Assembly: GCF_021495345.1 (NCBI RefSeq)
Contig: NZ_CP099397.1
Location: 1,302,001 to 1,366,000 of the forward strand
Source: Pseudomonas hydrolytica
GTDB lineage: Bacteria > Pseudomonadota > Gammaproteobacteria > Pseudomonadales > Pseudomonadaceae
DNA length: 64,000 nt
Reading direction: 5' to 3'
In this document: positions 7,063-25,905 of the stretch, piece after piece
Layout of the letters: the number at the start of each line of letters is the position of its first letter
Position numbering within the stretch: position 1 is the stretch's first letter
Translations under genes and position numbers: made by a program
The notes under the pieces: generated by a model
The model's input: the letters and a program-made list of their open reading frames with translations, nothing else
Database searches by the model: none
Told to the model about the DNA's origin: nothing

Positions 7063-11497
<4,435 letters not shown>

Positions 11498-12875: not shown

Positions 12876-13121
12876 ATGCCAAGAATCTCCGCGACTCAAG
12901 ATCAAGACCAAAGCCTGATGCGTCTGGGAAAGGCTGTTCGTGCCCGCAGAGCGCAGCAGGCTCTCTCCCAGGAAGCACTTGCTGATGCGGCTGGGATTGA
13001 CCGCTCCCATATGGGGAAAATTGAGCGTGGGGAACGCAATGTGACCTTTCTGAACATTGCGCGAATCGCTTCTGCGCTTGGATGTAAACCATCTGACTTA
13101 CTGCTGGACGCTGATCTGTAG
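12876..13121 (+). CDS. Xre-family (Cro/C1-type) transcriptional regulator
   Basis: This 81-residue protein is almost entirely one HTH_3 domain: 'LGKAVRARRAQQALSQEALADAAGIDRSHMGKIERGERN' (in pieces, about 16-54) then 'VTFLNIARIASALGCKPSDLL'. Small single-domain Xre proteins control neighbouring mobile-element or defence genes. It diverges from the glycine-zipper gene at 12451-12795 and probably represses that intergenic region, where an imperfect palindrome CGAAACGATTCG sits at 12860-12871. A second possible start is the ATG at 12918. The regulatory target is inferred from position only. Confidence 0.8.
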   Translation: MPRISATQDQDQSLMRLGKAVRARRAQQALSQEALADAAGIDRSHMGKIERGERNVTFLNIARIASALGCKPSDLLLDADL

Positions 13122-13149
13122 CGTCTCGCCCAACGGCGCCTGCCATCTG

Positions 13150-13647
13150 TTAAAGCAAGCCCTGTTCAGCCAGCGACACGATGCCTTCTGACCCCACGAT
13201 GAAGTGGTCCAGCGTGGTGGTGCCAACCATGACCAAGGCGTTTTTGAGTGTCTGCGTCAGGCGTATATCTGCCTGGCTGGGCGAGGGATCGCCCGAAGGG
13301 TGGTTGTGCACCAGGATCACGGCAGCGGCGTTGTGAGCGAGCACTGTCTTGACCACTTCGCGCGGATACACGCTGGCCGCATCGAGGGTGCCGCGAAACA
13401 ACTCCTCGAAACTGATCACCCGGTGTTTGCTGTCGAGCAGCAGCACCGCGAAGATTTCGTGTGGTAGATCCTGCAGCAGCACCTGCAGGTGTTCTCTGAC
13501 TTTGTGTGGATCAGTCAGCGCGCGTCCCTTACTAAGTCGCTGAGTGGCCAACTGCTGGGCCATGCGCAGGATGTCGGTTTCGCTGACAGGCGAGTCCACC
13601 AGGTAATTGCCGGCGACTTCACCGGCCCTGAGTTTGTGAAATTTCAT
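13150..13647 (-). CDS. RadC-like JAB/MPN-domain protein
   Basis: This 165-residue RadC-family protein carries the metal-binding JAMM motif 'VILVHNHPSGDPSPSQADI' and a conserved upstream Glu in 'HEIFAVLLLDSKHRVISFEELFRGT'. It lacks the N-terminal helix-hairpin-helix part of chromosomal RadC. This short form is the one usually carried by integrative elements and prophages (UPF0758/DUF2466). The biochemical role is unsettled. It follows the gp3-like gene on the same strand with a 41-base gap, an order common in Pseudomonas integrative elements, suggesting one operon read from about 16.1 kb. Confidence 0.85.
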   Translation of the reverse strand: MKFHKLRAGEVAGNYLVDSPVSETDILRMAQQLATQRLSKGRALTDPHKVREHLQVLLQDLPHEIFAVLLLDSKHRVISFEELFRGTLDAASVYPREVVKTVLAHNAAAVILVHNHPSGDPSPSQADIRLTQTLKNALVMVGTTTLDHFIVGSEGIVSLAEQGLL

Positions 13648-13688
13648 GGTGTGTCTCCGGATGGCGAGCCGATTCGGCCCGCCTATGG

Positions 13689-14585
13689 TTAGGCTGACGG
13701 TTCGAGCTGTTGGGATTGGGCTTCGAGTTTCTCGGCGAGTGACTGGGTGTGAACGGTGCTGTCGGGCTTCGATGCGGCAGGCTGGCCGTCCGGAAAGAAC
13801 TCTTCAGCAATGGCGCTGCTGTCCTCACCGTCGTCTTCGAAGATGCCGTTGCTCAGGCCGAGTCGCGCGGTGGCATCCAACGCTGCCTGATCAAAGCCAG
13901 CCGCCAGACGCGCCTCATCCAGCTCCCGTGCAGTGAGCAACGCTTGCTCCACGGTCATGCCGCTACGTAGCGTCAGATCGACGTAGAAGATCGGTGTGCC
14001 ATAGCTCTGCCGCGTGGATTTGCCACGCAGACGCAGTTCCAGCGGCAGGCAGGCCAGGCGATCACCGGATATGGCCCGGAAGTATTGCAGCCGGGCTATC
14101 AGCGTGCGGATGCTATTGAAGCCCGTGGTGCGAAACACGAAGCTGCCCAGGGCGTCCTCATCGCCAATCACCACGTTCATCCGCCCGTAGGGCTTGCAGG
14201 CGTTGCCCTTGGCTAGAGGGCAGGCATCGGGTGACGGGCAGGGCAGCGATTGGACGCCATCCTTACCGATACGCTTGCAGGTTTCACCGTTGCCGACACA
14301 CATCGGTCGACCGTTCTGCCGATCAAACAGGGTGTAATCAGCGCGGAAGTTCAGCTCAGGTTCGTTGAACAGCAAGCGCACCGGGATGCTGCGCAGCTTG
14401 TCGTCCTTGCCCTGACGTAACTCATCATTGAGTGGATGCAGCAACCAGCCGTCTTTGCCCTGCACCTGGGAGGTGATGGTGAATTGATCGTCTTTCTCCG
14501 GCAGGCGCTTGCCGTTCTTCTCGACGACCTTGCCGATCGAGATGCGCCCGAGTACGGGCGGGGTAATTGCCAGGCCTTTGAGCAT
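13689..14585 (-). CDS. gp3-like / 'hydrolase or metal-binding protein' of integrative elements
   Basis: This 298-residue protein is of a type found in Pseudomonas and other proteobacterial genomic islands, usually named 'hydrolase or metal-binding protein', possibly related to gp3-type recombination directionality factors. A basic N-terminal domain is followed by a Cys-rich section (CVGNGETCKRI, then LPCPSPDACPLAKGNACKPYG, about residues 94-130) that probably binds zinc. Residues 135-240 form a conserved core. The C-terminus (about 245-298) is acidic and low in complexity. The start at 14585 (MLKGLAITPP) has AAGGAG seven bases upstream, so the longer start at 14606 is rejected. It lies between a YqaJ-type exonuclease remnant and RadC, suggesting a recombination role. 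That role is inferred from context. Confidence 0.65.
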   Translation of the reverse strand: MLKGLAITPPVLGRISIGKVVEKNGKRLPEKDDQFTITSQVQGKDGWLLHPLNDELRQGKDDKLRSIPVRLLFNEPELNFRADYTLFDRQNGRPMCVGNGETCKRIGKDGVQSLPCPSPDACPLAKGNACKPYGRMNVVIGDEDALGSFVFRTTGFNSIRTLIARLQYFRAISGDRLACLPLELRLRGKSTRQSYGTPIFYVDLTLRSGMTVEQALLTARELDEARLAAGFDQAALDATARLGLSNGIFEDDGEDSSAIAEEFFPDGQPAASKPDSTVHTQSLAEKLEAQSQQLEPSA

Positions 14586-14673
14586 GATGGCGCTCCTTGT
14601 AAGCAAAAAAGGCCAGCCAGCAGCGCGAACTGCATGGACTGGCCAAGGGGAGGGATGGAGTAGAAGAGGGCGA

Positions 14674-16074
14674 TCAGCCGATCAGAAAGCGCCGACTACC
14701 TTCCTTGAGCTTCGGATAACGGGCCTGCAGGTAAGGCTTTTCCTGGAGCAGGCGCTCGACATCGAGCACGGTGCTGTCTTTGGCTTTGCGCCAGCTCACG
14801 TAGCCGCTGGAGAACTCAGCACGGGTCGATTCACCCATGGCTTGCTGCAGCATTTGCTTGAGCTCGGCCTCGCGCTTTTCTTTCTCGGAGATCGATTGAC
14901 GCACAGCCTTCAGCTCCAGGAAGGCAGCCGCCAGACCGGCATTGCTGCTGAAGTCGACCACCTGGCCATTGTCCTGCGGATACAGGCAACGCAGCGCCAG
15001 CTCGGCCGATGCACTGCCATCGGCAGGTGGTGGTGTATCCGTTTCAACGTACTGCCAGAAGCGGCGCTCCAGTTCGATCAGGCGAGCGATCATCTGCTCA
15101 TCCCGCTCGATGCGATGGATCTCCAGCGTCTGACCACCGAGCAACACCGCCACATCAGCCGCCTGCTTGCCGGTTACGGCGAGCTGGTGCATCACCTGCA
15201 ACTGCACATATTCGGGGACGCCTTCTTTCCAGAGGCGTGCCCCGTTTATGCCGGCTGTCTTGCATTCGAGGATCTGCACTTCGTCTGTACCAATCACCTC
15301 GCGATCAATGTTAGCCAGCATCCAGGGCAAATCCGGATTGGGATGCTGCAGTACGGCGTTGATGCGACGTACCTTGTGCTTCGTGCGCTTGCTGTAGCCC
15401 AGTGCCTCATGCCACTGCACCTTGCGCTCAGCCAGCGCGCGCATGCGGTACATGAAGTCGTCCCATTGCGAGACGGCGATGCCAAGTTGCTTCTTCACCG
15501 CCTTCGGATCGAAGCGGGTGTTGTGCGGCACCTTGATCGCACGGCTGGTGCCATCCAGGGCGACCGTCAGGGTGTTGTTGCACACCACGCGAACGGTGGT
15601 CGGTGTCGCCGTGGTGGCCAGGGTGCCGTCACAGGAAGTCGCCAGCAGCAGGTAGCCGTTGACCTGATCGTTGCCCTTGATCGACGTGCCTTGTCCGGTA
15701 CGCGCCAGCGCCCAGAACTTGCGACCTCCCTTGAGCACGCCCGCAGTTTCCAGCTCATAGCCGGACACTTCGGTCAGATCGCGATAGAACTCCAGCACCT
15801 CGCGCGGTTGCACGGTGTGATAGCGGTTGGAGACTACCGATAACGGAGCCTTGGTATCGGAGCGGTAGAGCACCTTCTGTTCAGGAAAGGAATGGATCGT
15901 GCCCAGATGACCGACAGCATCCGATTTGAAATGTACCGGCGACTCCTGGATTTGCCAGTCCATACCAGCTTGACGTTGCCAGACCTCGATAGGTTGCTTG
16001 CGAGGCAGGTTGTTGCCCAGGCCGTGCCAGGGAGTGGTGCCGACGTAAGCCATTTGTTCGACTTGATGAGCCAT
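14674..16074 (-). CDS. DUF932 protein fused to a truncated YqaJ-type exonuclease
   Basis: This 466-residue protein looks like two genes joined. Residues 1 to about 226 are a DUF932 domain (MAYVGTTPWHGLG; VVSNRYHTVQPREVLEF; 'TPTTVRVVCNNTL'; ending 'ERKVQWHEALGY'). From about residue 228 ('SKRTKHKVRRINAVLQHPNP') it continues as the C-terminal half of a YqaJ-like viral recombinase exonuclease: 'WMLANIDREV', then 'QILECKTAGINGARLW', 'VPEYVQLQVMHQLAVTG', 'VAVLLGGQTLEIHRIERDEQ'. The Asp of NID (257) and the ExK (270/272) of the nuclease core remain, but its N-terminal part is gone. These are normally separate neighbouring genes, so an in-frame deletion is likely. The start at 16074 is set by AAAGGAA upstream. 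Confidence 0.75.
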   Translation of the reverse strand: MAHQVEQMAYVGTTPWHGLGNNLPRKQPIEVWQRQAGMDWQIQESPVHFKSDAVGHLGTIHSFPEQKVLYRSDTKAPLSVVSNRYHTVQPREVLEFYRDLTEVSGYELETAGVLKGGRKFWALARTGQGTSIKGNDQVNGYLLLATSCDGTLATTATPTTVRVVCNNTLTVALDGTSRAIKVPHNTRFDPKAVKKQLGIAVSQWDDFMYRMRALAERKVQWHEALGYSKRTKHKVRRINAVLQHPNPDLPWMLANIDREVIGTDEVQILECKTAGINGARLWKEGVPEYVQLQVMHQLAVTGKQAADVAVLLGGQTLEIHRIERDEQMIARLIELERRFWQYVETDTPPPADGSASAELALRCLYPQDNGQVVDFSSNAGLAAAFLELKAVRQSISEKEKREAELKQMLQQAMGESTRAEFSSGYVSWRKAKDSTVLDVERLLQEKPYLQARYPKLKEGSRRFLIG

Positions 16075-16166
16075 GATGAATTTCCTTTGAGCAATAGCCG
16101 GCATAAAGCGCTGCGCATGGCGCAGCACCGGCATTTAGGGATGAATGAAAGAGAAGGGCGGCCGGA

Positions 16167-16493: not shown

Positions 16494-16661
16494 GGTTGAA
16501 GACTCCATGGTGGGGATGTCATTGCGGTGATGTGTGACTGAAAAAAAATGGATTCAACGCGGCAGGAAAGGTCATCGTTGATTGACAATTGCTTTTACTT
16601 GCTCAGATTACGAAACTGTCGCTCCGCAGCCTCAGAGCTGCTGCTAAGAAGGATGCAAGAA

Positions 16662-16811
16662 ATGAGCGACCGTTTTGAAGACGATGAAGAGGAAAATACC
16701 CTCGATTTCGATCACGAAGCAGCTGAAAAAGCAGGCTATTCCGGTGTTCCTATTGAGGAGCTGGACGAAATAGCTCTTCGTGAAATAGAGCGGGTTAGCA
16801 AAGGCGAATAG
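16662..16811 (+). CDS. Small acidic protein, unknown
   Basis: This encodes 49 residues with a strongly acidic N-terminus (MSDRFEDDEEENTLDFDHEA) and a helical acidic end. No signal peptide, cysteines or known motif are present. The ATG at 16662 follows AAGGATGCAAGAA; a longer in-frame start at 16548 reads through an unlikely sequence. It stands alone on the plus strand upstream of the nuclease-helicase operon. Its acidity recalls DNA-mimic proteins, but there is no other evidence for that. Confidence 0.45.
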   Translation: MSDRFEDDEEENTLDFDHEAAEKAGYSGVPIEELDEIALREIERVSKGE

Positions 16812-17047
16812 CCTGCCAGCTTGATCAAGCCTTGATGCTTATCTGGCGCCCGTTTCTACTTGGGTCATGGCATGCGGTTAGTTTGTCTTGGTAGCTGCAT
16901 GCTGTGAGCCACGATTTGCGGCCCGCACAGCGCTAACACGATAATCCAGGTGTCAAGGATCGTCGCCCAAATGCAGATAGCGGACTCCCTCAGAACTCTC
17001 AGGCAGTGCCTGTTGCATCGTTTTTTAGACATGGATGAGAGCCGCGC

Positions 17048-17833
17048 ATGATTTGGCAAACCCTATATCAGTCGGCAGATGGCTGCGTCTCCTGGCAAGG
17101 TAACTGTGCGCAGGCTGGAGATTTGTTCAATGGCTTTCTGCAAGGTCCCGTGTCTGCACGCCTGAACGATAGTGAAGGCAGCATTGCATTGAGCCAGCAT
17201 CTTCGAGGTCTTAGCCTAACTGGTATGGGGCAGGATGCCTTGCAGGCTGTGCTCGACGCAGAGCTGCCAGAAACTCGCGATTGGGCTGCGGGTGAGGCAC
17301 TGGCAGAGGTAGTGCTGCAGGAGCAGCATGACGTGGTGTTGCCCTGGAACAATGAGCGCGACAAGCGTAATCCTTTTGCATCTTTGCCAGGTGCTGACAT
17401 TGTTGGCTTCCAGCGCGATGGTGAATCACATCGTCTGGCATTGGGTGAAGTCAAATGCTCATCCGAGGATAAATGGCCGCCTCAGGTTATGACTGGGCGT
17501 AGTGGCATGATCCATCAGCTAGAGACGCTTGCTGGAAACCTCGGCACCTTGTGCCAGTTGCTCAAATGGTTACTGCCTAGAGTCAAGAATACTGAATATC
17601 AGGCAGCCTTTGATTCCGCTTGCAGGCGATATTTCGAGTCTGGAAATCGTGATCTAGCGCTATTTGGCGTTTTAATACGCGATCAGGCAGCCAGCGAGAT
17701 GGATTTGAAAAATCGCGGCAAGGCTCTTGTAAAGAGCGTGCATGCCCCGACACGTTGCCACCTACTTGCCTTGTATCTGCCTTGGCCGATTGAACAACTG
17801 CCTGCTGTTATTACGCAGGGATGTGGAACATGA
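17048..17833 (+). CDS. PD-(D/E)xK nuclease-like protein of a Hachiman/AbpAB-like defence pair
   Basis: This 261-residue protein shows a nuclease-type pattern: Glu83 and Glu87 in a helix (AAGEALAEVVLQ), Asp117 in 'SLPGADIVGF', and Glu134-x-Lys136 in 'RLALGEVKCSSED'. That is the E-D-ExK order of PD-(D/E)xK enzymes. The N-terminal 75 residues look like a separate domain; the C-terminal part (about 150-260) is mostly helical. No membrane segment or signal is seen. It overlaps the following helicase gene by 4 bases (ATGA at 17830-17833), implying a coupled pair. This size and gene order match HamA (DUF1837)-HamB of Hachiman and resemble AbpA-AbpB. I cannot confirm DUF1837 homology by eye, so it is named by architecture only. 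Confidence 0.65.
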   Translation: MIWQTLYQSADGCVSWQGNCAQAGDLFNGFLQGPVSARLNDSEGSIALSQHLRGLSLTGMGQDALQAVLDAELPETRDWAAGEALAEVVLQEQHDVVLPWNNERDKRNPFASLPGADIVGFQRDGESHRLALGEVKCSSEDKWPPQVMTGRSGMIHQLETLAGNLGTLCQLLKWLLPRVKNTEYQAAFDSACRRYFESGNRDLALFGVLIRDQAASEMDLKNRGKALVKSVHAPTRCHLLALYLPWPIEQLPAVITQGCGT

Positions 17834-20800
17834 ATCACTGGCTGCTGGAAGCGATTGCAGAACGGCGTGCACAAGCGCTGCGTGATGCTGACCGGGTGCA
17901 GTTCTACCGTGAAATGACGCCGCAAGAGCCTGATTTAGATGCTCAGACCATTCATGAGGTAGTGGCTGCGCTGGAACTGGCCGTGCTGGATATGGAACTG
18001 GACCGCTTTGGGGATGAGAAGGATCGCCAGGCGGTACTGCACAGTGCAGCAGCAGATGCTTTCCGACTTTTGCGGGTACTGCCCTTACCTGAAACTCCGA
18101 TGGCAGCGGCTACGCACATGCTGCGGGCATCCATATTGGCGGTGATTGGTGACCGGGGAGCAGATGCTGCGCGCTGGCTCCGTGCGCTTGATGATAAAAA
18201 AGCTTGGCCCGTGCTACCCCTGAACTCGTCAGATTGGGGGGAGCGCTGTCGTGCCACTCTTACCGATGTATGGTTGCGCCTGGTTCGCAAGCAAGGCTGG
18301 AACGACCGTGACACCGTACTTGAGCGGGTGGCTGCTCTGCGCACCAGCCAGCAGGAGTTTGAGCGAGAGTACCTGGGGTCTTTCGATCCGCTGCAAGCAA
18401 AGCGCTCGGCGCTAGAGCTTATCGCCATCTACCATTTGGCCAAAGCAGCTGACGTGCTAGCCCACTTCATCACCGATGGCGTGGTGGAGGATAGTTTTCA
18501 GATTCAGCCGATGCTGGACTCGCACTTTGACCGTGCCATTGCGGCCTGTGATACCGCTCAGTTGCTTGAGCTGGGGCCGCTAACGCGTCTGTTGGCAAGG
18601 GCAGCCGCTCAGATGGAGGCGAATTCGCTGTGGACGGTCACTCGTGCGGTGAACTCAAGGGTGACGAAATTTGTGCGCGAGTTGGTCAGTCGTGGCCGTG
18701 GTGATCGTGCCCTGTTCGATGTGCTGCCACCTCAGCGCCGCACGCTTGCTGAGCGGGGCTTGCTGGGATCTAGCCGCCGTGCCGTGGTGGTTAGTCTGCC
18801 GACTTCCAGTGGTAAGACGCTGATTGCCCAGTTTCGCATGCTGCAGGCGCTGAATCAGTTTGATGACCGCAAGGGGTGGGTTGCTTATCTTGCACCCAGT
18901 CGGGCACTGGTGAATCAGGTTACGCGACAGCTACGGCGCGATTTCCAGCCGCTAGGCGTGGTAGTGGAGCGGGTCAGTCCAGCTATGGAGGTCAACGGCA
19001 TCGAGGCGGGGGTGTTGGCCGAGCAACAGAGTGATGCTCAGTTTCGTGTTCTTGTAGCCACGCCCGAAAAGTTCGATTTGATGCTACGCCAGGGGTGGGA
19101 GGAAAAAATTGGTCGTCCGCTCACACTAGTTGTGGTGGATGAAGCTCACACGATTCAGGACAGTGAGCGCGGACTGCGGCTTGAGTTGCTGCTAGCAACT
19201 ATTAACCGTGAGTGCCGCGAGGCGCAGTTCCTACTGTTGACGCCTTTCATCCAGAACGCCCGGGAAGTTGCGCGCTGGTTGGGTGGTCTGAACTCTGAAG
19301 ACATAAGCCTTGGGGTGGACTGGCAGCCGAATGACAGGGCTATCGGTATTGTCAGCGCGGTAGATGCGGGTGCCAAGAAGGGGCGAAGTCGCGATTATCA
19401 GGTGAACTTCGAGACAGTTCACACTTCTCGACCCAGTATTATCCTGGATGACGTGTTCCCTCTGGGCAGAGAACAGAGCCTGGCTACCTCGCTGACGGAG
19501 GTCAAGGCTGTGGGTACGCTAGCTGCGATCGCTGCGCGCAAGCTGGCTGCCCGTGGGCCGGTTATTGCCATGCACAACACTCCGGATAATGTCTGGAGAT
19601 TGGCACATAAGCTGAAGTCTGGACGAAGCATAGAACTGTCGGCTGATTTGCGGTTTGTGCAGGACTATGTGGCGGCAGAGATGGGCGAGCAGTTCCCGTT
19701 GGTGGATTTGTTGTCCCATCGTGTGGGGGTGCACCATGGCGGGCTGCCGGAAGAAGTCCGGATGCTGATGGAGTGGCTGTTCGAGAAAGGTCATCTGGAT
19801 GTCCTGGCAGCCACTACTACCCTTGCCCAGGGGGTGAACTTTCCTGTGAGCGGTGTGGTGATGGCGTCTACTCATTACCCGCAAGGAAAGAGCTCTGTTC
19901 CCATGCCGCCGGAGGACTTCTGGAATATTGCTGGTCGGGCGGGGCGTGTTTCTCAAGGGCAGTTGGGTGTGGTCGCGCTGGTGGCCAAAGACGCAGCTGA
20001 CGTGGAAAAACGTCGTGACTTCATCAACCGCAACACCGGAGATCTGAACTCCGCACTGATTCAGTTGGCTCAAGCTGCAGCCGGTGAACTGACTGACCTT
20101 GGATTGATTGTTTACCACCATCCCGAGTGGTCTAGCTTTCTGCAGTATCTAGCCCATACCTACCGCCAGATGGGGCAGCCGTCCAACTTTGCCGATCAGA
20201 TCGAGCAGGTCTTGCGTGGCACCTTCGGCTTTGAACGGCTTCGCACGTCAAACAGTCAGCTTGCTCGCAGTTTGCTTACAGGTATCCGCAGTTACGTTTC
20301 TTACATGGCTAGCCCTGCACAACCGCTAGGGCTGGTAGACAGTACGGGCTTCTCGCTGCAGAGCATCAAAACGGTCATGACCCATCGCGGTAACATCGGG
20401 CCAGATTCATGGGATCGGGACAGGCTGTTCAAGGCTGGTGACGGCACTCTGCAGACCATGATGGGGGTGCTGCTCCGTGTGCCGGAGTTGCGCGATAACC
20501 TGAAGGCAGTTTTAGGTGGAAAAACGCCAGATGGCGACAAACTTGCGCTCATTTTGAAGGACTGGGTGAATGGTGAAGAGCTGGTCACCATTGCCGAGCG
20601 GCACTTCAGCCAGGAAGGCACGGATACAGTTACTGCCTTGACCAAGTGCGGTCAGAACCTCTTCGGTAAGCTGGCTCATACCTCTTCTTGGGGGTTGAAT
20701 GCACTGCTTGCTATTACAGGATCAGAGCTTGAAGACGGCGAGCGTAGCCTATTAGCCAATCTACCCTCGCAGGTGTATTACGGTGTATCGACAGATGAAG

Positions 20801-21000
20801 CAGTTTCGCTGCGCCTTCTAGGTGTACCTCGCCGAGCCGCACCAGCTTTGGCTCGGGCGATGCAATTGAAACCAGGTGACTCCTTGCCTTTGATCCGGCA
20901 ACGCCTTGAGGCCTTGCCGGAACAGGGGTGGAGTGCTGCACTGGGCGCTGATGGACAGGTTTATCGCAAAGCTTGGCTGATCATGGACGGAGTGGAGTAG
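17830..21000 (+). CDS. Superfamily 2 (Ski2-like) helicase of the nuclease-helicase defence pair (HamB-like)
   Basis: This 1056-residue SF2 helicase has about 310 helical residues before the motor. Motif I is 'LPTSSGKT' (Lys329), motif Ia 'YLAPSRALVNQ', motif II 'VVVDEAHTIQD' (DEAH, 437-440). Motif III is atypical, 'LLLTPF' instead of SAT. Motif V is 'AATTTLAQGVNFPV' and motif VI 'FWNIAGRAGR' (702-706). These RecA2 motifs resemble Ski2/Hel308-type helicases. Some 350 residues follow, probably winged-helix and accessory domains. ATG 17830 is chosen because it overlaps the nuclease stop; ATG 17821 is also possible. The location beside an ssrA integrase fits a defence island. The HamB-like identity is inferred. 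Confidence 0.8.
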   Translation: MNHWLLEAIAERRAQALRDADRVQFYREMTPQEPDLDAQTIHEVVAALELAVLDMELDRFGDEKDRQAVLHSAAADAFRLLRVLPLPETPMAAATHMLRASILAVIGDRGADAARWLRALDDKKAWPVLPLNSSDWGERCRATLTDVWLRLVRKQGWNDRDTVLERVAALRTSQQEFEREYLGSFDPLQAKRSALELIAIYHLAKAADVLAHFITDGVVEDSFQIQPMLDSHFDRAIAACDTAQLLELGPLTRLLARAAAQMEANSLWTVTRAVNSRVTKFVRELVSRGRGDRALFDVLPPQRRTLAERGLLGSSRRAVVVSLPTSSGKTLIAQFRMLQALNQFDDRKGWVAYLAPSRALVNQVTRQLRRDFQPLGVVVERVSPAMEVNGIEAGVLAEQQSDAQFRVLVATPEKFDLMLRQGWEEKIGRPLTLVVVDEAHTIQDSERGLRLELLLATINRECREAQFLLLTPFIQNAREVARWLGGLNSEDISLGVDWQPNDRAIGIVSAVDAGAKKGRSRDYQVNFETVHTSRPSIILDDVFPLGREQSLATSLTEVKAVGTLAAIAARKLAARGPVIAMHNTPDNVWRLAHKLKSGRSIELSADLRFVQDYVAAEMGEQFPLVDLLSHRVGVHHGGLPEEVRMLMEWLFEKGHLDVLAATTTLAQGVNFPVSGVVMASTHYPQGKSSVPMPPEDFWNIAGRAGRVSQGQLGVVALVAKDAADVEKRRDFINRNTGDLNSALIQLAQAAAGELTDLGLIVYHHPEWSSFLQYLAHTYRQMGQPSNFADQIEQVLRGTFGFERLRTSNSQLARSLLTGIRSYVSYMASPAQPLGLVDSTGFSLQSIKTVMTHRGNIGPDSWDRDRLFKAGDGTLQTMMGVLLRVPELRDNLKAVLGGKTPDGDKLALILKDWVNGEELVTIAERHFSQEGTDTVTALTKCGQNLFGKLAHTSSWGLNALLAITGSELEDGERSLLANLPSQVYYGVSTDEAVSLRLLGVPRRAAPALARAMQLKPGDSLPLIRQRLEALPEQGWSAALGADGQVYRKAWLIMDGVE

Positions 21001-21057
21001 GCGAGGGCTCGAAAACAACCATCGATCTTCGAAAATCAGCTGATAATTTCTGGCTGC

Positions 21058-22317
21058 TTAGCGGCGTATTGGAATGATTTTTCGATCACCAAGTTGATTG
21101 ATAGCTGCAGCCGAAAGATTGCCGGTAGCAGCCTTTTGAATATGCTCACTCCACCAAGCCATCATAGGGCGCCTGCGATCGATATAGTCCGCACGGTTGT
21201 AGGCACTGCGCACTTCGTCCTTATCCACATGCGCCAGCGCTACTTCGATCAGCTCAGGCTCCCAGCCGTGCTCGTTGAGCGTTGTACTGGCCATTGATCG
21301 CATTCCGTGGCTTACCAAGCGTCCCTCAAAGCCCATGCGTTTCAAGGCCATGTTGGCTGTTTGGCTATTGCAGTGAGTACGCGGATTGCGGTCAGCAGGG
21401 AACACGTATTCACGGTGCCCGCTGTAGGGTTTGATTGCTTCCAGAATGGCCAATGCTTGATCTGTAAGCGGCACCGTATGCGGGCGACGTTTCTTCATGC
21501 GTTCAGCCGGGATCGTCCAGATCCTTTTCTCGAAGTCGATATCGGCCCAGCGGGTAGTGGCAGCCTCAACGGGGCGAGTCATCGTGTGCAGTTGCCACTC
21601 GATCAGGCATCGAGTGGTTCTTTTTATGCTGGCGTTCGCGATTGCAACCATGAGCTCTTTGAGCTCATCGGGATGTAAGGCCGGCATGTTCTTTTTCTTC
21701 GGCTTCTTGAACACGCTACCAATCCCGGTAAGTGGGTTGGCGGGTATCAGGCCTGAGTTGACCCCGTAGGTCATGATTTCGTTGAGTCGCTGCGTAAGGC
21801 GTTTGACGGTTTCCAGGCTGCCTTTAGTTTCGAGCGGCTTGAGAAGGCTGATGACTTTCGGAGCTGTTATGGATGCGATCGGCGTAACGCCCAAGTCGGG
21901 GAAGACGTGCAACGTAAGCGAGCGCCAAATGTCTTCAGCGTAGGCGGGGGTTACTGCATCTTTCTTGAGTTCATACCAGGACGTCGCTACGTTCTGCAGC
22001 GTGTGCTCGGTTGCGGCCTTTTTGGCCTGTCGATCTGCGTCGCGTCTCTCTTTGGGATCAATGCCCTGTGCTACGAGCTCACGCGCTTCAATGGTCAGTT
22101 TGCGGGCTTGAGCAAGGCTTACTTCCGGGAAGGTGCCAAGCCCCATATTCAGTCGCTTCTTGGTGATGGGGTGGATGTAGTTGAAATTCCACAATCTCGA
22201 TCCATTGATTCTCACTCGCATCTGAAGGCCGTTGCCGTCAGTCAAGGTGTAGTCCTTTTCTTTGGGCTTTGCTGCTTTGACCTTCAGGTCTGAAAGGCGC
22301 GTTGTTGCGGCACCCAT
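21058..22317 (-). CDS. P4-type tyrosine integrase (DUF4102 family), ssrA-specific
   Basis: This 419-residue site-specific recombinase has the N-terminal arm-binding/DUF4102 domain (LSDLKVKAAKPKEKDYTLTD, then 'GLQMRVRINGSRLWNFNY'), a central SAM-like core-binding domain (about 100-190), and the catalytic domain. Catalytic residues visible are Arg in 'HTMTRPVEAATTRW', His-x-x-Arg in 'VSHGMRSMAS', His in 'ALAHVDKDEVRSAY', and the nucleophilic Tyr in that last motif. Length is normal, so it may be active. It lies 184 bases from the tmRNA 3' end, the usual position for an integrase of an element inserted in ssrA. Repeated TTGGAATACA words upstream may be its operator or arm sites. No excisionase gene is recognised. 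Confidence 0.93.
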   Translation of the reverse strand: MGAATTRLSDLKVKAAKPKEKDYTLTDGNGLQMRVRINGSRLWNFNYIHPITKKRLNMGLGTFPEVSLAQARKLTIEARELVAQGIDPKERRDADRQAKKAATEHTLQNVATSWYELKKDAVTPAYAEDIWRSLTLHVFPDLGVTPIASITAPKVISLLKPLETKGSLETVKRLTQRLNEIMTYGVNSGLIPANPLTGIGSVFKKPKKKNMPALHPDELKELMVAIANASIKRTTRCLIEWQLHTMTRPVEAATTRWADIDFEKRIWTIPAERMKKRRPHTVPLTDQALAILEAIKPYSGHREYVFPADRNPRTHCNSQTANMALKRMGFEGRLVSHGMRSMASTTLNEHGWEPELIEVALAHVDKDEVRSAYNRADYIDRRRPMMAWWSEHIQKAATGNLSAAAINQLGDRKIIPIRR

Positions 22318-22501: not shown

Positions 22502-22858
22502 TGGTGGAGCCGGGGGGATTTGAACCCCCGTCCGCCAGCTCTCCGCTATCGGTTCTACATGCTTAGCCATCTCTACTGAGTTAACTCCGCGCCGCCCGAG
22601 TGGCAGGGTGCTTGGAGCGAGCTGCATGAGTTTTAGCCGTTACGTCTGCAGCGAACTTGGCGGCGATCCTGTTCTATATGACTGACCAGATCTTCGGGTT
22701 TACAGGCATCCCCTAGGGTCAGCTGGCGCCCTTAGGCGGCCAGAGCGTAGTTGTCGTCGTTGGCAACTATGAAGTTGTGGCAGCGGATTTACGAGAACTG
22801 TCACCTACTCGGCATGCCCCTCAAGTTTCGTTACCGGCGTCGAATCCTAATCGGCCCC
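22502..22858 (-). ncRNA. ssrA: Transfer-messenger RNA (tmRNA)
   Basis: This 357-base RNA rescues stalled ribosomes and tags the incomplete peptides. The 5' end reads GGGGCCGATTAGGATTCGAC (22858 downwards) and the 3' end is a tRNA-like acceptor/T-arm (GGTTCAAATCCCCCCGGCTC, then CACCA) with the CCA encoded at 22504-22502. The tag frame at 22764-22732 reads GCC AAC GAC GAC AAC TAC GCT CTG GCC GCC TAA, giving ANDDNYALAA, the Pseudomonas tag. tmRNA 3' ends are common integration sites. The adjacent integrase and island suggest the element entered here and preserved the 3' sequence. The RNA appears intact. Confidence 0.97.
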
Positions 22859-22989: not shown

Positions 22990-25905
22990 ATGCCGAGTTC
23001 CAGCCGCTTTCCCCTGCGTCAGTGGATCTGGCGAGCGTTCGTGCAGAGCGCGCTGATCCCGTTGATTCTGGTGGAGTCGGTACTGATCGCGGTGTATCTG
23101 CTGAGCAATCAGGCGATTCGCGATACGCAGATCGGCCATCTGCAGGAGGCCGCGGTCAAGGATCTGGCCAGCGCGGCGTTACGCGAGGGGCAGATCATCG
23201 ATGGGCGTTTGCGCTCGATCGAGTCGCTGGTGCAGGTCTATCGTGATGCAACCCTGCAGGCGCTGCTCGACGATCGTTTCCAGGCCGACGAGCTGGAACA
23301 CCGGCGCCACGCCAGCACCGACAGCGGCGTGTTCTATACCCGCAGCGACGATGGGCGCGCGGCTTCCTTCTATGCCAACAGCACGCCGCGAGAGCAGCAG
23401 GACCACGCCAAGGTCATGCGCCTGTCGCAGGTCGATCCGCTGATGCGTTCGATCAAGCAGGCCAACCCTCTGGTGGCGGCGCTGTATTTCAACAGCTGGG
23501 ACAGCTACAACCGCATCTACCCCTGGTTCGATACGCCGGCCCAGTACCCTCACGACATGGTGATCCCGGATTACAACTTCTATTACCTCGCCGATGCCAA
23601 GCACAACCCGGAGCGCAAGGTGATGTGGACCGAGGTCTACCTCGATCCGGCGGGCCTGGGCTGGATGATGTCAGCCATCGCCCCGGTCTACCGCGGCGAT
23701 TTCCTGGAAGGGGTGGTGGGGCTGGATATCACGGTGGATCAGGTCCTGGGCGAGATCGCGGAGCTCAACGTGCCCTGGCAGGGTTACGCCATGCTGGTCA
23801 GCCATGACCACAACATCATGGCGCTGCCGGCGGCCGGCGAGCTGGATTTCGGTCTGCGCGAGCTGACCCACTATTCCTACGAGGAGGCAGTACGCCGCGA
23901 GGTGCTCAAGCCCGAGGACTTCAATCTGACCAAGCGCGAGGGCATGGCGCCACTGCTGCGGGCGATGAACGAGGGGCGCGGCAATGTCCAGGAGGTACTG
24001 CTCGGCGGGCGCAAGCAACTGGTGGCCTGGAGCGAGATCCCGCAGACCGGCTGGCGTCTGCTGCTGGTGGTGGACGAGGAGCAGATCTTCCACGAGACCA
24101 ATCAGCTGGCCGAACGCTACATGCAGATCGGCTACCTGCTGATCGCCGGTCTGCTGGCCTTCTACCTGCTGTTCTTCGCCCTGATGTGGCTGCGTTCGCG
24201 GCATCTCAGCAACCAGCTGGCCCGTCCCATCGCCGGTATCGTGGAGATGGCCGGCAGCCTGGGGCAGGGCAACTATCTGCCGGCTTCACCGGACAGTCGC
24301 ATCGCCGAAGTCAGCCGCCTGGCCGAGGCGGTTCAGCAGGCGGGCAAGCAGTTGCAGGCCAGCGAGCTGGAGCGTCAGGAGGCGCAGAACAGTCTACAGC
24401 TGGTGCTGGAGAGCACCACCGAAAGTCTGTGGCACATCAATACGCAGGACCTGACCATCGAGCTCAGCGAGCGCTTCGTGCGTCGCTTCGGCCTGGGTGG
24501 CCGTCACCTGAGTCTCAGCGAATTCAACCAGCGCGTGCATCCCGACGATCTGGAGCGGCTGCGCCATCTGCGCAAGCACTTTGCCGAGAGCGGCGACGAG
24601 CATTTCGATGCCGAGTACCGCTACCTCGACGCCAAGGGGGACTATCTGTGGCTGCTCAGCCGCGGCAAGGTGCTGACACGGGACGACAATGGCTGGCCGC
24701 TGCGTATCGCCGGCACCCACGTCGATATCACCAGGCTCAAGCAGGTGCAGGAAGAGCTGCGCCACGCCAGCCTCGAGGCGCTCGCCGCCAGCCAGGCCAA
24801 GAGCCGTTTCCTGTCGAGCATGAGCCATGAGCTGCGCACGCCGCTCAACGCCATCCACGGCTTTGCCCAGCTGATCGAGATGGAAACCCAGGACAAGGCC
24901 GATGCCGGTCCGGAGAGCGACTACGCGCGAGAAATCGTCAATGCCAGCCGGCATCTCACCTCCCTGGTGGACGATATCCTCGATCTGTCGAGCATCGAGA
25001 GTCGTCGTCAGCAATTGCAGCTGCAGCCGATCGAGATCGGCGGTTTGCTCAACGGCTGTGCCGAGCTGGTGCTGCCCGAAGTGCAGCAGAGGCAGTTGCA
25101 GCTACAGGTGATGGAGCCCGCCCAGCCGCCGCTGTTCGTGCAGGGTGACCCGCGCCGGGTACGGCAGATTCTGCTCAATCTGCTTTCCAACGCGATCAAG
25201 TACAACAGCCCGCGCGGGATGATCCGCATGGGGTATGAAGTGCGTGCCGACTGTGTGCGCCTGTGGGTCGATGACACCGGGCCGGGGCTTTCCACCGAGC
25301 AGCAGGCGCAGCTGTTCCAGCCGTTTCAGCGTCTTGGTCGGGAGAGTTCCAACATCCCCGGCACCGGCATCGGCCTGGTGCTGTGCCGGGAACTGGCCAG
25401 CCTGATGGAGGGCGAGATCGGCCTGCGCAGCGAGCCGGGAGTGGGCAGCCGCTTCTGGCTCGATCTGCCCAGTGCCGCCAGCCCGGAGGGCGAGGCCAGC
25501 GATGCCACAGACGAGCCCGCCCAGCCGCGTCAGCGCCTGGTGCAGGTGCTGTGCGTGGAGGACCATCCGGCCTGCATGAAAATCCTGCAGGCTTCCCTGC
25601 GCGAGTTCGCCGAAGTGCGCGGCGTGAGCTCGTGCCAGCGAGCCCTGGCCGAATTGCAGAGCAGCGAGCCGGCCCTGGTCTTGCTGGATATCGATCTGCC
25701 CGACGGCAGCGGACTGGAGGTGCTGGACAGCATGCGTGCCGATCCCCGGCTACGCGAGATACCGGTGTTGGTGATCAGTGCTGTGGCCGACGCCCGTCTG
25801 TTCGAGGACGCCCGCGCGCGCGGCGCTTCGGCCTGTCTGAGCAAACCGGTGGATCTGCAGGAAGTGCGTCAGGTCGCGCTGGGCTTGCTGTACAGCGGCT
25901 ATTGA
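22990..25905 (+). CDS. Hybrid sensor histidine kinase (periplasmic Cache-like sensor, HAMP, PAS, HisKA, HATPase, receiver)
   Basis: This 971-residue membrane kinase has a first membrane helix at about 17-40 (SALIPLILVESVLIAVYLL) and a large periplasmic part of about 330 residues resembling a double-Cache domain ('YNRIYPWFD', 'WMMSAIAPVYRGDFLEGVVGLDI'). A second helix lies at about 380-400, then HAMP, a PAS/PAC domain (about 465-590) and a HisKA box 'MSHELRTPLNAIHGFAQ' (His613). The HATPase domain has 'NLLSNAIKYN' and 'GTGIGLVLCREL'. A C-terminal receiver has acceptor Asp near 900 (LVLLDIDLPDGSG). ATG 22990 has GGAG upstream; ATG 22942 is less likely. No response regulator is adjacent, so its output partner is elsewhere. 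It is the first backbone gene beyond ssrA. Confidence 0.9.
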   Translation: MPSSSRFPLRQWIWRAFVQSALIPLILVESVLIAVYLLSNQAIRDTQIGHLQEAAVKDLASAALREGQIIDGRLRSIESLVQVYRDATLQALLDDRFQADELEHRRHASTDSGVFYTRSDDGRAASFYANSTPREQQDHAKVMRLSQVDPLMRSIKQANPLVAALYFNSWDSYNRIYPWFDTPAQYPHDMVIPDYNFYYLADAKHNPERKVMWTEVYLDPAGLGWMMSAIAPVYRGDFLEGVVGLDITVDQVLGEIAELNVPWQGYAMLVSHDHNIMALPAAGELDFGLRELTHYSYEEAVRREVLKPEDFNLTKREGMAPLLRAMNEGRGNVQEVLLGGRKQLVAWSEIPQTGWRLLLVVDEEQIFHETNQLAERYMQIGYLLIAGLLAFYLLFFALMWLRSRHLSNQLARPIAGIVEMAGSLGQGNYLPASPDSRIAEVSRLAEAVQQAGKQLQASELERQEAQNSLQLVLESTTESLWHINTQDLTIELSERFVRRFGLGGRHLSLSEFNQRVHPDDLERLRHLRKHFAESGDEHFDAEYRYLDAKGDYLWLLSRGKVLTRDDNGWPLRIAGTHVDITRLKQVQEELRHASLEALAASQAKSRFLSSMSHELRTPLNAIHGFAQLIEMETQDKADAGPESDYAREIVNASRHLTSLVDDILDLSSIESRRQQLQLQPIEIGGLLNGCAELVLPEVQQRQLQLQVMEPAQPPLFVQGDPRRVRQILLNLLSNAIKYNSPRGMIRMGYEVRADCVRLWVDDTGPGLSTEQQAQLFQPFQRLGRESSNIPGTGIGLVLCRELASLMEGEIGLRSEPGVGSRFWLDLPSAASPEGEASDATDEPAQPRQRLVQVLCVEDHPACMKILQASLREFAEVRGVSSCQRALAELQSSEPALVLLDIDLPDGSGLEVLDSMRADPRLREIPVLVISAVADARLFEDARARGASACLSKPVDLQEVRQVALGLLYSGY

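Follow-up and report, generated by a model that had tools for sequence, protein, structure and literature searches.

A probable Hachiman-like nuclease-helicase pair matching the candidate system PDC-M23 on an ssrA island of Pseudomonas hydrolytica

Gene pair and catalytic motifs

This study concerns a 64,000-nucleotide stretch of Pseudomonas hydrolytica DNA (assembly GCF_021495345.1, contig NZ_CP099397.1, positions 1,302,001 to 1,366,000; hereafter the window, with positions counted from its first letter) and two overlapping genes in it, which encode a nuclease and a helicase. The pair matches both models of the PADLOC candidate PDC-M23. It is probably a Hachiman-like abortive anti-phage system that represents a distinct HamA-HamB sister subtype, carried on an island of about 40 kb at ssrA. 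The genes and their principal motifs are as follows:

17048..17833, forward strand: HamA-fold nuclease gene (PDC-M23A), 261 aa
17294..17296, forward strand: codon of E83 (GE motif); E in 122 of 122 rows of alignment A5
17396..17398, forward strand: codon of D117 (GADIVG); D in 122 of 122 rows
17447..17455, forward strand: codons of E134-V135-K136 (ExK motif); E and K in 122 of 122 rows
17830..21000, forward strand: Ski2-like superfamily 2 (SF2) helicase gene (PDC-M23B), 1056 aa, ATGA overlap; PADLOC models PDLC04531 and PDLC00192 (HamB1); motifs I-VI
18793..18819, forward strand: motif I, SLPTSSGKT (K329), from the alignment
19138..19149, forward strand: motif II, DEAH (DEGH in most long HamB compared), from the alignment

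An earlier note, made from the letters of this DNA alone, had described two ATGA-coupled genes of 261 and 1056 residues, and the listing of open reading frames (ORFs) in the window agrees. The helicase ORF opens at 17821 (1059 aa), and its ATG at 17830 gives the 1056-residue product and the overlap with the nuclease gene. The same four-base overlap is present in all 17 relatives for which it was computed, a set without L004, L007, L015 and L021. The helicase gene lies directly 3' of the nuclease gene in all 19 loci that a sequence pattern retrieved (running off the contig in L003 and L007) and a protein search finds 945 nuclease homologues at E <= 1e-3; the gene pair is therefore more than a chance arrangement. 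The E-D-ExK pattern (Glu83, Asp117, Glu134/Lys136) sits where the note had placed it and is invariant throughout A5, of which 18 rows are HamA. K106 is likewise invariant in the 122 rows, but is not counted as catalytic because a canonical HamA outside the set (L049) lacks it.

The hidden Markov model search that the note had proposed was run with PADLOC and leads to candidate PDC-M23, with weaker matches to Hachiman models. The nuclease matches the M23A model over nearly its full length (344 bits, E 9.6e-104) and the HamA1 model at E 1.2e-3. Likewise, the helicase matches the M23B model PDLC04531 over nearly its full length (1373 bits, E 0) and the HamB1 model PDLC00192 at 200 bits. No tested feature distinguishes the pair from PDC-M23, for which the PADLOC entry names no function.

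Relationship to Hachiman

The predicted structure of the nuclease, likewise proposed in the note, has a HamA fold over the whole protein with the GE-D-ExK residues intact, in keeping with the nuclease assignment made there. HamA surfaced only in a second look with VIA-align. The E, D and ExK residues are spaced similarly in the nuclease and in HamA, and when profiles of M23A and of long-type HamA, made separately, are aligned, the match spans 86 columns and pairs the catalytic motifs with one another (P 1.2e-4). When 104 M23A rows were compared with the HamA profile, the score was 40.5; no more than 21.4 was reached in 100 column shuffles, and 13.3 with the reversed profile. The residues E83, D117, E134 and K136 are the counterpart of the active site of Escherichia coli ECOR31 Hachiman (HamA E138/K140, D-E(x)K; PDB 8vx9), with which the pair also shares the nuclease-helicase gene order, a Ski2-like helicase with a long N-terminal part, and similar protein lengths.

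The note's description of the helicase as Ski2-like is upheld by SF2 motifs I-VI, with K329 within motif I, by the HamB1 match and by profile alignment to long HamB. In a 36-row helicase tree, the 19 M23B sequences (the window, 17 loci and L075) form one clade with support of 100/100, which lies on the long-HamB side, apart from short HamB and AbpB. This tree is without L003 and L007 (contig ends), L051 (a 548-aa ORF) and L039 (no clean helicase ORF); because long branches were flagged, nothing beyond the M23B clade and the two-sided split is taken from it. The M23B profile aligns with four long HamB over residues 194-1036 (P 2e-44), with long HamB plus two intermediates over 62-1038, with short HamB over 267-1013, and with AbpB-type or Lhr helicases over the core only. 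Its N-terminal 290 residues score 32.7 against the HamB profile, compared with 19.1 or less in 100 shuffles, which hints that this part may be a counterpart of the HamA-binding domain (NAH). Motif III, TPF (M23B residues 467-475), differs from the SA of long HamB and is closer to the short-HamB and AbpB versions, which contain P. A housekeeping Ski2, Hel308 or Lhr identity was rejected, as the NCBIfam helicase models listed score far below their cut-offs and Lhr matches the core only.

Several results weigh against kinship with Hachiman. The nuclease matches no Pfam family at E <= 1, and PF08878 (HamA/DUF1837) matches none of 22 proteins (the nuclease and 21 close relatives, alignment A1). A HamA-free profile (A2) retrieves HamA from the PDB as its two best matches, at a non-significant E of 0.32-0.37, and Foldseek alone finds nothing in the PDB at E <= 1e-3 for the predicted structure. 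A first AlphaFold2 (AF2) model, built from the 22 close sequences, was unusable (predicted local distance difference test, pLDDT, 35.8). The 104 M23A rows were cut from an alignment made jointly with HamA. The alignment behind the later model held 18 HamA rows of 122, so the structure model and the HamA match are not fully independent. On the helicase side, the N-terminal profile does not retrieve HamB from the PDB, and the whole protein scores higher on ASCC3 (158.7 bits, four stretches) than on HamB (89.3 bits, two stretches). Its motifs II and III read DEAH and TPF, whereas three of the four long HamB shown have DEGH, one has DEAH and all have SA. A PDB match of profile A5 to HamA (E 1e-12) was set aside as circular, since A5 itself holds 18 HamA rows.

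Among the matches listed for the more distant L018 branch, seven of 120 homologues (57-60% identical to the L018 nuclease) carry PF08878; the family therefore straddles the threshold of that model. A few homologues are already named 'Anti-bacteriophage protein A/HamA' or 'DUF1837' in their source records. Because PF08878 is unmatched in the nuclease and in the A1 rows, the pair is not filed as canonical Hachiman. The note's guess of a distinct subtype is borne out. The differences from Hachiman are the missing PF08878 match, the separate helicase clade, the DEAH and TPF motifs, and the frequent position of the M23 family behind hsdS, the specificity gene of type I restriction systems. Type II Hachiman has an additional HamC (DUF3223) gene, according to PMC8565338; none is present among the 10 window proteins scanned by Pfam.

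The note had compared the build to both Hachiman and AbpAB. While the overall likeness is borne out by PADLOC, fold and tree, AbpAB proves the poorer comparison. AbpA of E. coli K-12 has 538 aa and a Cap4-like nuclease, whereas M23A has 261 aa and the HamA fold only; AbpB has 729 aa and M23B 1056 aa. In PMC12278908, AbpA is described as carrying a second, N-terminal Cap4-like nuclease fused to a HamA domain that is reported inactive, whereas M23A keeps its active-site residues. Membership of AbpAB was rejected on the intact active site and the length. The K-12 AbpAB genes (L037) lie on an integrase-bearing island, CP4-57, with rnlAB and a DUF932 gene; a DUF932 gene is also found on the island described here, at 14674-16134.

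Linkage to type I restriction

In most of the relatives examined, the pair is linked to type I restriction genes, a feature missed by the earlier note. Among the 19 pattern-fetched loci, hsdS lies directly upstream of the pair in 13, with an ATGA overlap in nine of these. Restriction-gene fragments are found upstream in two others (an hsdR and hsdS piece in L009, an hsdR piece only in L013), an hsdS 3' stub is kept in L005 and L006, and L015 and L018 have no restriction gene or stub upstream. In six of the 19 loci, the order is hsdR - hsdS - M23A - M23B - prrC - hsdM, with extra genes between some. A second, pattern-free sample (four non-self matches in 274 genomes of the class) contains two embedded pairs (L094, L095) and two free ones (L093, L096). 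In addition, L075 is free, the viral-collection contig L084 is embedded, and both E. coli loci examined (L085 and L086, of six E. coli records with a DNA match) are embedded in a restriction operon. In total, 18 of 27 relatives have the pair directly behind hsdS, two have it behind a fragment and seven are free; three operon layouts occur (R-S-M23-M, M-S-M23-R and R-M-S-M23). Halomonas salicampi (L010) is one source of a restriction-embedded pair.

At Hachiman and AbpAB control loci, a set that excludes L037, hsdS is directly upstream in 0 of 17, and any restriction match lies nearby in two (L040, L042). The difference from the M23 loci is significant by Fisher's test (13/19 against 0/17, p 1.3e-5; 7e-7 with fragments counted, 15/19). 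The eight restriction/PrrC queries, being drawn from M23-linked operons, could overlook restriction genes of other kinds, and the flanks span about 4 kb on each side of control loci compared with up to 9 kb for M23 loci; for these reasons, the comparison is limited to the gene directly upstream. A Pfam scan of 21 upstream ORFs from the 17 control loci (one or two each) shows no type I restriction family among the best 25 of 45 families. A like hsdS match would have shown, since this list reaches E 1.4e-9 and Pfam-scanned hsdS genes match at 2.5e-13 or better; a weaker one could hide.

Three loci deserve separate mention. In E. coli GmM062 (L085:7968-9398), a single frame within a type I operon fuses M23A to the C-terminal part of M23B with most of the helicase absent, a deletion fusion. 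In E. coli E14 (L086:878-10240), a mad1-like regulator, hsdR, hsdM and hsdS precede M23A-M23B, with an integrase nearby. At L018:13127-16903, a 1258-aa protein with an LmuA-like N-terminus is encoded directly 3' of the free pair and followed by RadC.

The linkage could mean that the pair guards restriction in the manner of PrrC: it would be silenced by the intact type I complex, probably through HsdS, and fire when a phage anti-restriction protein disables that complex. PrrC is a tRNA anticodon nuclease and the known guard of EcoPrrI, according to PMC12707154. The position behind hsdS fits this idea, as do the six loci in which the pair occupies the slot between hsdS and hsdM beside prrC itself, although a PD-(D/E)xK-type nuclease with a helicase is unrelated to PrrC as a protein. 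The host also has a type I operon of the same kind at 4.22 Mb, with prrC; hsdS and prrC overlap there and no M23 pair lies between them, so the slot filled by M23AB in relatives is empty. Against a guard role, the eight queries find nothing in window positions 1-30000 or in the rest of the island (L080), no restriction gene turns up in the flanks fetched for the seven free relatives (L005 and L006 keep the stub), and a HamA/HamB-type build already has DNA damage as its own signal. We regard a guard as unlikely.

The host operon (L087:7402-15961; G000:C1 about 4.224-4.233 Mb) brings several accessory defence genes together: an hsdR C-terminal piece, an 880-aa Ppl-like ATPase, a protein matching a pAgo model, hsdS, prrC and hsdM. 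M23 is absent among the ORFs scanned.

The free-standing copy and its island

As a type I restriction accessory module, the copy in the window would be expected directly behind hsdS; what lies upstream is at most a decayed hsdS stub:

16968..17051, forward strand: possible decayed hsdS 3' end, in a frame whose TGA overlaps the nuclease ATG; local score 30

The candidate remnant reads QMQIADSLRTLRQCLLHRFLDMDESRA. Its score is reached by 211 of 20000 random segments (a chance level of about 1%), by 11 of 1378 segments ending at a stop, and by 16 of 5000 in a second test; a decayed hsdS end is suggestive only. The remnant bears on the idea that the pair is a relic cut from a restriction operon and inactive alone. 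So do the clear hsdS stubs of L005 and L006, broken copies elsewhere (the L021 nuclease in pieces, the L085 fusion, the L096 helicase in two frames) and a simple promoter scan of 16500-21300 that finds no site upstream of 17048. Both genes are nonetheless uninterrupted and of full length, every catalytic motif is present and the overlap is conserved, and inactivity is the least probable of the explanations considered.

The island features are as follows:

12876..16134: neighbouring island genes for an HTH regulator, RadC, a Gp3-like recombination directionality factor and a DUF932/YqaJ protein (Pfam)
21058..22317, reverse strand: tyrosine integrase of the island (PF00589, PF13356, PF22022)
22502..22858, reverse strand: transfer-messenger RNA (tmRNA) gene, ssrA, the integration target (ARAGORN; Rfam RF00023, 191.6 bits)
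22502..22524: 23-bp att repeat at the ssrA 3' end; second exact copy at G000:C1:1284542-1284564 in the same genome

The two copies lie 39,960 bp apart. A search of the 5.29-Mb genome with 22 bases of the repeat finds two places at up to three mismatches, and the exact extent is 23 bp; inside the window only the ssrA copy is found, as the second lies to its left. Exact repeats at both ends delimit an island of about 40.0 kb that contains the pair; its right 22.5 kb falls within the window. The location of the pair in an integrated element at ssrA, as the note had proposed, is confirmed. The integrase gene adjoins the tmRNA gene. GC content is 53-60% per kb over the pair, compared with about 65% (59-72%) right of position 23000.

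Given neighbours such as RadC, the DUF932/YqaJ protein and the recombination directionality factor, the pair might instead serve DNA repair or element maintenance by processing island DNA ends (recombination, stability) or by excluding rival elements, not phages. A further resemblance of the helicase is to Hel308 (NCBIfam PRK02362, E 2.5e-40), at a score well short of the model cut-off. Only one of nine window proteins tested matches any of 20 related loci (RadC, at L018); it is the restriction genes that are conserved with the pair, and a maintenance role is very unlikely.

Other cargo includes an RND-pump-like efflux protein (8351-11497, judged by eye) and, at L080:5768-19071, a cation efflux protein, two porins (OprD and Porin_O_P families) and two neighbouring integrase-family genes, by which the island looks composite. 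Near its left end (L080:1792-4422; G000:C1:1284792-1287422) lies a C-terminal fragment of Druantia DruE (PDLC00037, 806 bits, profile positions 1223-2052 of 2055), a relic of another defence system.

Distribution and catalogue status

Among 25 genomes of the genus, the nuclease is found in the window's own genome only, and the pair therefore looks like a sporadic acquisition. No match was found in phages (nuclease protein search) or in plasmids (DNA of the pair; helicase protein at E <= 1e-100). Two weak partial matches occur in G167 and G272 (E 0.003-0.005).

As a PADLOC candidate, the pair is no unnoticed family, a status that the earlier note had also missed while its reading otherwise held. 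A full-text literature search for the name PDC-M23 returned no paper. The PDC models are said to derive from the Payne et al. 2024 preprint on embedded defences, which may already report M23 and its embedding in restriction operons. As far as searched, the restriction linkage of the pair is new; the family itself is catalogued and undescribed in the literature searched under its name.

Proposed function

According to PMC12278908, HamA and HamB of E. coli form a heterodimer; HamB keeps HamA in check, detects free DNA ends and switches on a nuclease that clears all DNA. Because the nuclease residues, the helicase motifs and the general architecture are retained in M23AB, we infer that it follows the same logic and likely functions as a damage-triggered, DNA-degrading abortive defence. 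By this analogy, M23B would hold M23A inactive in a complex while scanning DNA, and would engage a single-stranded 3' end or other DNA damage arising when a phage infects. ATP hydrolysis by M23B would then activate M23A, which would use its E83-D117-E134-K136 metal site to degrade the DNA of both phage and host, leading to cell death and phage defence.

Where the pair lies behind hsdS, DNA ends made by restriction could feed it, adding a second layer; the free copies suggest that it can also work alone. More tentatively, and with doubt prevailing, M23AB may be a restriction-coupled form of Hachiman, a nuclease-helicase guarding genome integrity that evolved behind hsdS, is fed by restriction ends or set off by inhibited restriction, and has repeatedly moved out to other sites, mobile islands among them, to stand there on its own.

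Through this analysis, an uncharacterised PADLOC candidate gains a structural identity, namely a HamA fold whose active site is intact, and a testable mechanism. Since damaged DNA is what sets off Hachiman and is also a product of type I restriction, the three operon layouts that place a Hachiman relative behind hsdS replace a vague 'defence island' association with a two-layer model open to experiment. The free-standing copy here and the restriction-embedded copies elsewhere provide a ready-made comparison. If true, the restriction-coupled reading would make Hachiman and restriction two layers of a single defence circuit.

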